From Eubacteriaceae bacterium (lineage in GTDB: Bacteria; Bacillota; Clostridia; Eubacteriales; Anaerofustaceae), in contig JAFXKY010000035.1 in the NCBI GenBank assembly GCA_017531485.1, forward strand, positions 1 through 50,005: a stretch of DNA of 50,005 nt. The letters run 5' to 3'. The notes beneath the pieces were generated by a model. That model searched no databases. It had not been told where the DNA came from and saw nothing but the letters and a program-made list of their open reading frames with translations. Positions 11,338 to 49,850 of the stretch are shown here, in pieces; the first letter of the stretch is position 1, and every line of letters begins with the position of its first letter. Both the position numbers and the translations under genes were made by a program.

Positions 11338-13080
11338 ATGAGTGAAAACAAAAGAAAGATCTCTGAAGAAAAAGTATGGATGAATATATATTCCGACGAA
11401 GCTAAAAGTGTCACTTTGCCGAAACTTACCATCTATAATTATCTCAAAGAATACAACAAAGACCAGCTTGACAAATCGGCAGTTCATTATTACGGCACTG
11501 ATATTTCATTCCGTGAACTTTTCGCAAGGGTTGATGAGTGTGCCGATGCATTCGCCGCTCAGGGAGTAAAGAAAGGTGATATCGTATCATTCGTTTCCGT
11601 TGCGACTCCGGAAAGCATCTACGCAGTTTATGCCCTCAACAAGATCGGTGCTGTTGCTAACACCATTGACCCGAGAATGGACATTGCGAGCATCAGAAGA
11701 ATGATCCTTGAAGCAGGTTCAAAAGTTCTTATCGTCCTTGATATCGCATTCCCGAAGATCAAAAAGATCATGGATGACATCAATCAGGACAGGATCATCG
11801 TCCAGTCTGCTTATACATCACTTTCCCTCGTAAAGAGAACAGTAATGCAGGCGAAGACAAAGACAGACGTTCCTTACAGCGATGTGGTCATCAAATGGAA
11901 AGAATTCATCAAAGGTGCAAAGAACGCCCGCGCTGTTGAAGCTCCTTATGTCGGAGATGCACTTGTTGCCATTACATACACAGGCGGCACAACAGGGTTC
12001 CCAAAAGGCGTTATGCTGACAAACGACTCTATGAACGCCGTAGTAATCAACTTCCAGTATTGCGGTATCAAATATGAAAAATCACACCGCTTCCTCGGCA
12101 TTATTCCTATCTTCTCCGCTTACGGAATGGTGTGCGGAATGCATATGCCTCTTGGTCTCGGCGTAACACTCGTTCCAATTCCGAACTTCGTTCCGGCTAC
12201 CCTCGGAAAACTCGTTAAACAGTTCAGGCCGAACCATATGATCAGCACTCCTGCATTCATCGAAATGCTCATTGACAGCCCCGATATCAAGGGAATGGAC
12301 CTTTCATTCCTCTATACTCTCGGTTCAGGCGGAGATACCATGAATGAAGGACTCGAAAAGAAGCTGTGGAAATTCATGGAAGAACACAATATGAAATACC
12401 CTCTCGCGCAGGGATACGGCATGAGCGAACTTTCTGCTGCCGCTTCGTTCTGCGTAGGAGATATGTATAAGCCGTCAAGCGTCGGTATTCCTTCGCTCAC
12501 GACAACCGTTTCCGTATTCGATCCGGAAACAGGGGAAGAACTCGGATACAACGAGATCGGTGAAGTCTGCGTTACGGGTCCGTCAATGATGAAGGGATAT
12601 TTCAACCGTCCGGAAGAAACAGCTCATGTAATGCGTAAGCATGACGACGGTCTTGTATGGATCCATTCAGGCGATCTGGGATATGTTGACGAAGAAGGAT
12701 TTGTTTTCATCAAAGGCAGGATCAAGAGAATGATCACCCGTTTCGACGGACATAAAGTATTCCCCATCAACCTTGAGAGCATGATCTCAGAACATAAGGA
12801 AGTCATCAACTGCGCAGTTATCGGCGTTGATGACCGCGGACACGGTCAGGGACAGTATCCGGTAGTATTCATCGAACTCCGTCCGGGCGTTGACAAGAAG
12901 CAGTTCTGTAAGTATATGTTTGAATTATGCGACAGGGATGTTGAAGAAAGGGGTAAACCCGTTGCGGTCGTTGCGATCGACAAGATCCCCCTTACAGCAT
13001 TCGGAAAGAACGACTATGTAACCCTCGAAAAGGAATATAAAGAATTCGACTACACGAAGTGGGAAGAAATTACATATTAA
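11338..13080 (+). CDS. AMP-forming acyl-CoA ligase (class I adenylate-forming)
   Basis: A 580-residue enzyme that activates a carboxylic acid as acyl-AMP and then thioesterifies it, normally to CoA. Visible core motifs: TYTGGTTGFPKG (about 213-224), YGMSE, HSGDLGYVDEEGF with GRIKRMI, and the C-terminal FGK that supplies the catalytic lysine. No carrier or other domain is fused. The substrate is probably a medium or long fatty acid, an inference from the linked MarR, DegV and acyltransferase genes. The start is the ATG after AGGAGA; a longer frame would overlap the regulator. Codon choice is strongly biased (ATC, AAC, TTC, CTC), which suggests high expression. Confidence 0.93.
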   Translation: MSENKRKISEEKVWMNIYSDEAKSVTLPKLTIYNYLKEYNKDQLDKSAVHYYGTDISFRELFARVDECADAFAAQGVKKGDIVSFVSVATPESIYAVYALNKIGAVANTIDPRMDIASIRRMILEAGSKVLIVLDIAFPKIKKIMDDINQDRIIVQSAYTSLSLVKRTVMQAKTKTDVPYSDVVIKWKEFIKGAKNARAVEAPYVGDALVAITYTGGTTGFPKGVMLTNDSMNAVVINFQYCGIKYEKSHRFLGIIPIFSAYGMVCGMHMPLGLGVTLVPIPNFVPATLGKLVKQFRPNHMISTPAFIEMLIDSPDIKGMDLSFLYTLGSGGDTMNEGLEKKLWKFMEEHNMKYPLAQGYGMSELSAAASFCVGDMYKPSSVGIPSLTTTVSVFDPETGEELGYNEIGEVCVTGPSMMKGYFNRPEETAHVMRKHDDGLVWIHSGDLGYVDEEGFVFIKGRIKRMITRFDGHKVFPINLESMISEHKEVINCAVIGVDDRGHGQGQYPVVFIELRPGVDKKQFCKYMFELCDRDVEERGKPVAVVAIDKIPLTAFGKNDYVTLEKEYKEFDYTKWEEITY

Positions 13081-13087
13081 AATTTTA

Positions 13088-13112
13088 AAGGCACTTGCAT
13101 TGCAAGTGCCTT
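13088..13112. terminator. Bidirectional terminator
   Basis: AAGGCACTTGCA (13088-13099) and TGCAAGTGCCTT (13101-13112), then TGTTTTATT. It lies between the convergent ligase and GNAT genes. Confidence 0.85.
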
Positions 13113-13115
13113 GTT

Positions 13116-13556
13116 TTATTTATCTTCCCACAGCATCTCGATATGCGGGATGCCGTCTTCGAGAAATTCATCGGATACCTGACGGAATCCTGCTTTTTCA
13201 TAAAGTTCTCTCGCATAAACCTGCGCTTCGATGCGGATCTTTTCAGCTTTGAAGTGTTCCTTTGCGAGATTTATTCCTGTTTTTACTATCCCGAGACCGT
13301 ATCCCATCCTTCTTTTTGTGGATATTACCCTGCCGACAGAGGCCTCCTCATAAGACACTCCCTGCGGAATTACCCTGCAATATGCGACGATCTTTCCGTC
13401 TTCCTCAAGCCATGCATGAAGACTGACCTTATCCTTGTCATCAAGCTCCGAATAGGGGCAGCTCTGCTCAACGACAAAGATATTCACTCTTTCTTTCATT
13501 ATGTCATAAAGCTCATTTACCGTAAGCTCATCAAACTTCTTTACTTTTAATTCCAT
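13116..13556 (-). CDS. GNAT acetyltransferase, ElaA-like
   Basis: A 146-residue GNAT-fold protein. The N-terminus FDELTVNELYDIMKERVNIFVVEQSCPY is the ElaA signature. VGRVISTKRRMGYGLGIVKTG is the acetyl-CoA pyrophosphate loop (motif A) with an unusual RRMGYGLG in place of R-x-x-G-x-G/A. Substrate unknown. The start is the ATG following AAAGGAC, which overlaps the end of the upstream gene by 26 bases and so indicates translational coupling. It is the last gene of the 15800-13116 minus-strand run. Confidence 0.88.
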   Translation of the reverse strand: MELKVKKFDELTVNELYDIMKERVNIFVVEQSCPYSELDDKDKVSLHAWLEEDGKIVAYCRVIPQGVSYEEASVGRVISTKRRMGYGLGIVKTGINLAKEHFKAEKIRIEAQVYARELYEKAGFRQVSDEFLEDGIPHIEMLWEDK

Positions 13557-14124: not shown

Positions 14125-15408
14125 TTATCTGTCCTTTCTTTCTGCGAATATCAGGTTTTCCGCGAGTCGGAGATAATACTCACTGTACGGAACAGCAACG
14201 CTGTCGGAGTCCTGAAGAATCATTTTCTTTTTAAATTTCCTGAACTCGTCGTCCGTCATATGTTTTTTAGAGTAATAAATGTATTTCATTCCGTGTTTAC
14301 GGAATACGCCGTACTGAACAAAATTGCAGTAGCTCCAAATTCCATCTTTATGCATTCTCTTTCTTTCCGAGTGAAATGTATTGTAGCCTCTGAATACGAA
14401 TCTGTCTTCTTGAACTTCAAGCACAGGGTGGTACATAAGCATGGATGTGGAATGCATAAACAACACCGCACATAAAAGGGCACTTAAAAACATGGAATTA
14501 CTTATAAAAAACTCCATATACGAGAGTGGATACAAACCCAGCAGACTATACCCGAGCAGATAAAGAACCTCATTTAATGGAGAAAGCATAATAATTTTAT
14601 TTCCTCGTACAGATGCTTTTTCCCTCTGCATCATACATATTTCTCTGTACGGTGAATCTTCCCCATATCTTCCTTTGAGAATGTCTCTGCCTTTCGTGTC
14701 CTGCCCGAAAACTACATCGAGCGTGTGGGGAAACGGAATTTTATGAATAATGTTCTTCACTTCGCGGAATTCGCATGTTACGCTTTCCCTTATGGTGTCT
14801 TCGTATGCCGGAGATAGAATTTCTGAATACATATGAATTTTCTTTCCGATTTCAGAACTGAGTATGTCCGCATACAGTTTTTTGAGCTTACTGCTGAGAT
14901 CAAAATAAAAATATTGTTCCTTTAATATTTCACTTATCTCATCAAGATCTCTTCTGACATTTTCATCGTGTGCTATTCGGGATACGATGGACCCTTCATC
15001 AAACGGGGCATTTGCAGCAGGAATGAGAAACAATACGGCGGCGTAATATCTTTCAAATGTCAGGTTAAAATTTGCCATATAATAACGGTACGCTTCTGTC
15101 GGTGGTTCTACACATGTTCTGAAAATCTGAAGTATAATCTCCCGCTCGTTGTCGGGCAGATTGATTTCCGATGCATACACATACATCGGAGGTCTTGCCT
15201 TGCGCATTTTTCCGTAATGATATTCATAAGCGTTTTCACGCATTGCCTTTTCCGCAGGAGAATCTATTTCCTGACTGAGTCGTTTTTCGTATATGTATGC
15301 TCCTGCTTCCTTAATGTCATCAAAGGAATAATCATTTATGTTACAAGATACATTGTCAGTTCTCTCAGCGGATTGTGAACTTAACATATCAAATATTAAT
15401 TTCTCCAT
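14125..15408 (-). CDS. Uncharacterised membrane protein with YcxB-like C-terminus
   Basis: A 427-residue protein. The first 280 residues are soluble and charged, with no recognised domain. Two hydrophobic helices follow (about 285-330), then a C-terminal part (FVFRGYNTFHSERKRMHKDGIWSYCN...IYYSKKHMTDDEFRKFKKKM) that resembles the YcxB/PH-like module of Firmicute membrane proteins. The start is set by GGAGG six bases upstream of ATGGAG, two bases after the stop of the DUF2809 gene; longer in-frame ATGs fall inside that gene. Function unknown. Confidence 0.7.
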   Translation of the reverse strand: MEKLIFDMLSSQSAERTDNVSCNINDYSFDDIKEAGAYIYEKRLSQEIDSPAEKAMRENAYEYHYGKMRKARPPMYVYASEINLPDNEREIILQIFRTCVEPPTEAYRYYMANFNLTFERYYAAVLFLIPAANAPFDEGSIVSRIAHDENVRRDLDEISEILKEQYFYFDLSSKLKKLYADILSSEIGKKIHMYSEILSPAYEDTIRESVTCEFREVKNIIHKIPFPHTLDVVFGQDTKGRDILKGRYGEDSPYREICMMQREKASVRGNKIIMLSPLNEVLYLLGYSLLGLYPLSYMEFFISNSMFLSALLCAVLFMHSTSMLMYHPVLEVQEDRFVFRGYNTFHSERKRMHKDGIWSYCNFVQYGVFRKHGMKYIYYSKKHMTDDEFRKFKKKMILQDSDSVAVPYSEYYLRLAENLIFAERKDR

Positions 15409-49595: not shown

Positions 49596-49629
49596 ACAAA
49601 AGCGTGCATCTGCACGCTTTTGTTTTATA
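49596..49629 (+). terminator. Terminator after URO-D-like copy 2
   Basis: ACAAAAGCGTGCA (49596-49608) pairs with TGCACGCTTTTGT (49611-49623), then TTTATAA. Confidence 0.9.
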
Positions 49630-49634
49630 ATGTG

Positions 49635-49665
49635 GAAAAGTTTTCAACTTTTCTTTTTTATTTTA
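49635..49665 (+). terminator. Second hairpin with T-run
   Basis: GAAAAGTT (49635-49642), TTC, AACTTTTC (49646-49653), then a long T/A-rich tail. Confidence 0.55.
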
Positions 49666-49670
49666 TCCCC

Positions 49671-49850
49671 GCCCACCTCCCCCGCGCCGCAGGCGATGCA
49701 GGCATCGCCTGCCCTAAGCTTTGCTTCGGGCCAATGATTGCAGGGCAATCATTGCGGCGCGGCCGCCGCCGCGCGAAAGCGGAGCTTTCGCGGCAAAAGG
49801 CAGAGCCTTTTGCGCTCCGTGGTCAGCGGAGCACGGCGGCGGGGGTGGGT
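49671..49850. other. Nested multi-hairpin G+C-rich element (two three-leaf clovers)
   Basis: An outer stem (49671-49680 with 49841-49850, with G.U pairs) encloses two modules. Module A is closed by GCGCCGC/GCGGCGC (49684-49690, 49754-49760) and holds three abutting hairpins: 49691-49710 (9 base pairs), 49711-49731 (8 pairs, one mismatch) and 49732-49754 (9-10 pairs). Module B is closed by GCCGCCG/CGGCGGC (49765-49771, 49834-49840) and holds hairpins 49772-49792 (9 pairs), 49793-49813 (9 pairs) and 49814-49832 (6 pairs). The helices follow each other with no or one unpaired base. Composition is far above the rest of the window in G+C. Confidence 0.8.

Follow-up and report, generated by a model that had tools for sequence, protein, structure and literature searches.

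Several described families of dispersed hairpins share traits with the element analysed here. REPINs and BIMEs are intergenic and palindromic, form inverted doublets, occur as singlets too, and have been noted for compensatory changes (PMC3116915). Bacterial MITEs and small repeats (RUP, BOX, ERIC, SPRITE) have a non-autonomous size, terminal inverted arms, strong secondary structure and tens of copies, and BOX is built of modules (PMC3049150). In mitochondria, the RHE/DHE elements are abutting intergenic hairpins, some of them G+C-rich, which proliferate without a known enzyme (PMC2800124), and the LIMP palindromes of Lobosphaera are DNA palindromes for which cruciform extrusion and a role as rearrangement sites were proposed (PMC4524435). 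Template switching between the arms of a palindrome alters both sides at once and can invert the loop, as in a published GC-closed three-base loop in which tcc became gga (PMC8604942, PMC8794818).

In this work, we focused on an element located at positions 49671-49850 of a window of 50,005 nucleotides, i.e. the whole stretch of DNA analysed. RNA folding gave an outer stem around two closing stems, each with three abutting hairpins (MFE -125.2 kcal/mol, z -8.97), and none of 200 shuffles folded equally well. The complementary strand adopted the same architecture (z -8.3), and DNA parameters yielded z values of -11.0 and -10.8 on the two strands. The nested double three-leaf fold of the initial annotation was thereby upheld on both strands with RNA and DNA folding, except that, in the left module, hairpin 2 contains mismatches and, in the right one, hairpin 3 has a loop of 7 bases. 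Its G+C-rich extent needed adjustment, the left arm starting at 49667. The complete terminator reported upstream is present as the gene's own (49600-49626), whereas the hairpin nearest to the element is of a type also seen at other copies. The repeated unit, referred to below as a clover, consists of a closing stem and three hairpins that abut one another, each with about 9 bp and a loop of three bases; in a complete doublet, two such modules face each other as mirror images, enclosed by G+C-rich outer arms (Table 1). The double three-leaf element is real and far from chance, and in our view it is probably one copy of a dispersed DNA repeat of non-autonomous, REPIN/MITE-like type, in which template switching at replication keeps the arms perfect.

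Table 1. Positions of the element, its neighbours and the only Y1_Tnp-like gene of the genome
Feature	Coordinates	Strand	Details
Upstream gene, ORF of 326 aa	48599..49579	+	element behind the 3' end of the gene
Intrinsic terminator of the gene	49600..49626	+	AAGCGTGC-atct-GCACGCTT + TTGTTTT
Flanking terminator-like hairpin	49627..49666 (hairpin 49627-49659)	+	ATAATGTG-GAAAAGTT-ttc-AACTTTTC-TTTTTT, T-run pointing into the element
Left outer arm	49667..49683		CCCCGCCCACCTCCCCC
Left three-leaf module	49684..49760		closing stem GCGCCGC (49684-49690) with GCGGCGC (49754-49760)
Hairpins of the left module	49691-49710, 49711-49731, 49733-49753		
Right three-leaf module	49766..49839		closing stem CCGCCG (49766-49771) with CGGCGG (49834-49839)
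Hairpins of the right module	49772-49792, 49793-49813, 49814-49832		
Right outer arm	49840..49850		CGGGGGTGGGT, pairs with the left outer arm
Y1_Tnp/RAYT-like protein, 301 aa	L035 1090-1995 (G000:C73 about 12445-13350)	minus	C-terminal extension

Copies were searched for in the assembly that holds the window (G000; 2.17 Mb, 81 contigs). BLASTN with the element gave 36 matches, and a covariance model built on the left module yielded 86 when both strands were counted. Once parsed, the loci amounted to 69 three-hairpin modules at 47 places, with 22 complete doublets, i.e. about 50 intergenic copies. The search for other copies that the initial annotation had proposed was thus successful, and since the element belongs to a family dispersed in its own genome, a chance origin, which that annotation already thought unlikely, is ruled out. 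Single modules also occurred (e.g. L060, L061, L065), as did a combination of two plus three hairpins (L041). The outer arms are terminal inverted repeats (CCCCGCCCGCC...GGCGGGCGGGG), and the copies are short, multi-copy and non-coding as MITEs are; the 22 doublets, with their opposite loop sense, form the inverted pairs of subunits typical of a REPIN. More hairpin clusters were seen just outside clovers, at the right end of L061 (G000:C5 about 14127-14195) and in the right flank of L050, which suggests that larger nested hairpin arrays exist.

By hand count, about 27 of the 162 contig ends lay in or adjoining clovers; the true copy number is therefore probably above our count, and clover repeats are likely one cause of assembly breaks. 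Locus L031, at a contig end (G000:C3), is a near-perfect palindrome of 140 bases, probably an assembly fold-back within a clover. These contig ends and this fold-back are what one would cite for clovers being an assembly artefact, an explanation with practically no chance of being right: many copies lie mid-contig where the genes on either side are intact, and assemblies made independently from other species show the same architecture. As an account of the entire family, the artefact is refuted.

Outside this genome, BLASTN against 40 related genomes returned no match. A second covariance model, built from all module types, was run on a set of 67 genomes from the order. It hit about ten places in one congener (G001) and gave three weaker, well-formed matches in a different genus of the same bacterial family (G007), and none in the remaining genomes of this set. 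Among 391 genomes of the class, searched with a stricter limit and fewer candidates scored per genome, none was found outside G000 and G001; G007 was perhaps absent from this draw, and its matches lie below the stricter limit anyway. The closing stems of the congener (GCCGCAGGC/GCCTGCGGC) and of G007 (GGGCGGGCGCGGC/GCCGCGCCCGCCC) enclose three abutting short-loop hairpins with unrelated arms, and these clovers are convincing by eye. One congener locus (L092) is a full doublet whose right arm is of the same type (GGGGGAGGTGGGTGGG) and whose hairpins are different.

No Rfam family matched the window at gathering score. A pattern of the element's own type had only two matches in 84,980 genomes, both of them unrelated hairpins, and none in viral contigs, where the outer arm gave only scattered 16-base matches; plasmid and phage records contained no match to the element. 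In the literature, which was covered through openly searchable papers so that a description elsewhere is possible, no described system had the doubled three-leaf architecture. In Bacterium UASB270, two abutting hairpins with GC-closed three-base loops stand inside an outer stem (L070, about 955-1005); the bacterium is unrelated, and the structure resembles a smaller cousin of the clover or a case of convergence.

Every examined copy was intergenic, at a median distance of about 100 nt from the neighbouring stop codon and about 220 nt from the neighbouring start codon. Among 72 uncut flanks, a terminator-like hairpin within 60 nt pointed inward at 34 and outward at 17. About one third of the flanks carried ATAATGTTG or AATAAGGT, then a hairpin and a T-run, with the inverted sense on the other side. 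Other copies have the ATAATGTTG type on one side or on both, and none of the other terminators found within the window has it; this terminator piece is either carried along with the element or marks a preferred site of insertion. As the hairpin at 49627-49659 is of this recurring type, the repeat unit may begin near 49627. Some terminator hairpins were identical to clover hairpins (GCTTTGTGC/GCACAAAGC), as if hairpins had been exchanged between the two. Another structured repeat, about 100 bp in length (GGACGTCAnnnCACCGTATATCCG...GGTGCCTCTCCGTCC TTTTCCGCGGAAATGGGATTTCCGCGG), also adjoins clovers (L010, L016, L017, L032, L034, L048, L064) and, in L017, L032 and L034, is placed between duplicated copies of terminator and clover arm.

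A location downstream of genes, flanked on at least one side by terminators pointing inward, is what a chromosomal feature useful to the host and under selection might show, be it a bidirectional terminator or insulator, or a nucleoid or gyrase site. We regard this explanation as very unlikely: the distribution is patchy (this genus and one other, with none found in the rest of the family), at least one copy occupies a site that is empty in the congener, and terminators insulate without a clover. A benefit to the host is not indicated.

Covariation was assessed on an alignment of the left module (20 distinct copies) and by counts per hairpin, because MAFFT misaligned two subfamilies of right modules. 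In the alignment, 97.1 % of the cells were paired, versus 83.7 % in shuffles; only 2 cells were G-T wobbles, and 86 were changed on both sides relative to the commonest pair, these being the compensatory changes with pairing kept that the initial annotation had suggested looking for. Of all parsed hairpins with equal arms, 201 out of 217 were perfect. The 1945 cells of the parsed hairpins included two G-T and two A-C, a count in which mismatches may be understated since folding of single hairpins forbade G-T pairs, a limit that does not affect the count from the left-module alignment. Many stem pairs never varied among copies, so part of the arm perfection may stem from recent common descent.

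The loops were also far from random. GNA or TNC accounted for 112 of the 172 three-base loops (65 %, a few spurious clusters included), versus 12.5 % expected if random. Read in a fixed orientation, purine-type loops stood at 37:2 in the right module and at 12:31 in the left one; as these senses are opposite, the modules are mirror images and each strand holds the GNA loops of one module. Seven stems were found with loops in both senses. The d(GC-GNA-GC) sequence is an unusually stable DNA mini-hairpin. The stable loops of RNA strongly favour one sense: in rRNA, GNRA is 36-fold commoner than its own reverse complement (PMC8794818).

When paired bases co-vary, a functional RNA is usually regarded as proven. 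The stems of RNAs are commonly thought to change via G-U intermediates, and structured RNAs normally retain some G-U pairs. Such tolerance was not observed in the left module, where two wobble cells stand against the doubly changed ones. Because G-U intermediates and one-sided loops are both missing in clovers, the pattern suggests that one DNA arm has been copied onto its partner, which would explain the co-variation better than a functional RNA. Copies and compensatory changes having both been found, the element itself stands, but compensation is no proof of selection here, since template switching makes such changes too. That clovers are a structured non-coding RNA family, transcribed and acting as RNA, is one of the two readings the initial annotation offered; we give it little credit, despite the very stable fold, the strong covariation and the architecture conserved in the congener. 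It has no Rfam match, hardly any G-U pairs and dozens of copies per genome; the GNA loops are on opposite strands in the two modules, so that no single transcript has all of them; the loops invert; and inward-facing terminators exclude read-through at many copies. The other reading, a mobile or cruciform DNA repeat of REP/MITE style, was supported by the dispersed intergenic copies, an empty site, the lack of G-T intermediates and the inward terminators.

The empty site concerns the copy at C47:55516-55678. In the congener, the matches to its flanks are adjacent and collinear, with about 70 bases between them versus about 520 and no clover, so that one lineage has gained the copy or the other has lost it. 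Divergence at the junction is too great for a target duplication to be read. One genome per species was compared, and active movement was not seen. Since another palindromic repeat (GATCCCCCTG...CCCCCTTA) replaces the usual outer arm in three copies (L027, L028, L056), the outer arms are exchangeable too. A third palindromic repeat, of type GATCCCCCTGcgggnnnncccgCTTTCCCCCTTATCCTGAGGGGGAT (L027, L028, L056, L035 at about 1960-2080, and L072), replaces some outer arms and also adjoins the degenerate Y1 gene. For old single modules, segmental duplication is a possible means of spread in place of transposition.

A RAYT was considered as mover. The genome, which is 95 % complete so that a gene may have been missed, has only one Y1_Tnp-like gene (Table 1). 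Its product carries ILPDRANFLI (DRANF) at the position of the HUH motif and scored 32 bits with the RAYT equivalog model, for a cut-off of 80, and no clover was found at its locus; it is perhaps a domesticated or dead transposase. This candidate was rejected for want of HUH, for its score below cut-off and for its clover-free locus, which left the family with no transposase linked to it. The GTAG/CTAC foot was present in 1 of 81 flanks, and CGTC/GACG, counted regardless of position, in 14 of 81. By the tests made on foot motif and transposase, the family is not a REP. A strict REPIN/REP system mobilised in trans by a RAYT (Y1 HUH transposase) would account for mirror-image, palindromic, intergenic doublets and for the Y1_Tnp-like gene, but given how rare the foot is and what the gene has become, we judge such a system quite unlikely.

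With regard to REARRANGEMENT, the block between two clovers of C15 (43227-47340) lies at the same place in the congener but in opposite orientation, and of the five copies tested, four lay at synteny breaks. We do not claim clovers as inversion endpoints, as 20 kb of the window, almost clover-free with its sole clover at the end, was also broken three or four times. SbcD above cut-off was missing in all three clover genomes and present in 5 of 10 others (in 4 of the 5 by a strong single match). This absence fits palindromes needing a permissive host, which is suggestive and, with numbers too small, not significant. Another explanation is that clovers arise passively from replication errors: as palindromes, they would grow and multiply through template switching without a transposase, and would be tolerated as the genome lacks SbcCD. 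Arm homogenisation, loop inversion, the lack of SbcD above cut-off in the three clover genomes and the hairpins apparently common to flanking terminators and clovers (of the GCTTTGTGC type) speak for this account. We nevertheless find it unlikely, because several clover-free relatives are also without SbcD above cut-off, which leaves the association short of significance, and because template switching alone would not readily move a unit of 180 bp to distant loci.

For the dispersed DNA repeat that we favour, the following course of events can be proposed. The hairpins would function at the DNA level, being extruded where the DNA is single-stranded or supercoiled. Replication template switching would copy an arm onto its partner and sometimes invert the loop, so that the shape could persist while the sequence turns over. 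Copies would spread by some transposition or template-switch-copying activity, and would persist mainly in untranscribed DNA behind terminators. A bolder version, which we put forward as rather doubtful, is that clovers represent a new class of propagating DNA element in which the shape is inherited and not the sequence, the arms being rewritten pairwise by template switching and the doubled three-leaf form spreading behind terminators as a single-stranded DNA structure on which some enzyme lands or primes.

A large, strongly co-varying family that looks like a DNA product would produce false positives in RNA discovery. The clovers also provide a natural system, with dozens of independent hairpins per genome, for reading and timing template switching, loop inversion and arm homogenisation, and the family may reveal an undescribed route by which palindromic repeats multiply.

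Compared with REPINs, whose subunit is a hairpin of 20-40 bp, the clover is a three-hairpin unit of about 80 bp; it has no GTAG/CGTC foot and no intact RAYT, and its arms turn over. GT pairs, which are reported to be frequent in the stems of GTAG REPs (PMC3733652), are nearly absent in clovers. MITEs are described as AT-rich, whereas clovers are G+C-rich and made of two nested three-hairpin modules. LIMP elements are single palindromes of repeated units with an invariant loop and no clover. In the sponge RHE/DHE elements, stems are conserved and loops vary, whereas in clovers the stems also turn over, pair by pair, and the three-leaf modules are doubled, in a bacterial genome.
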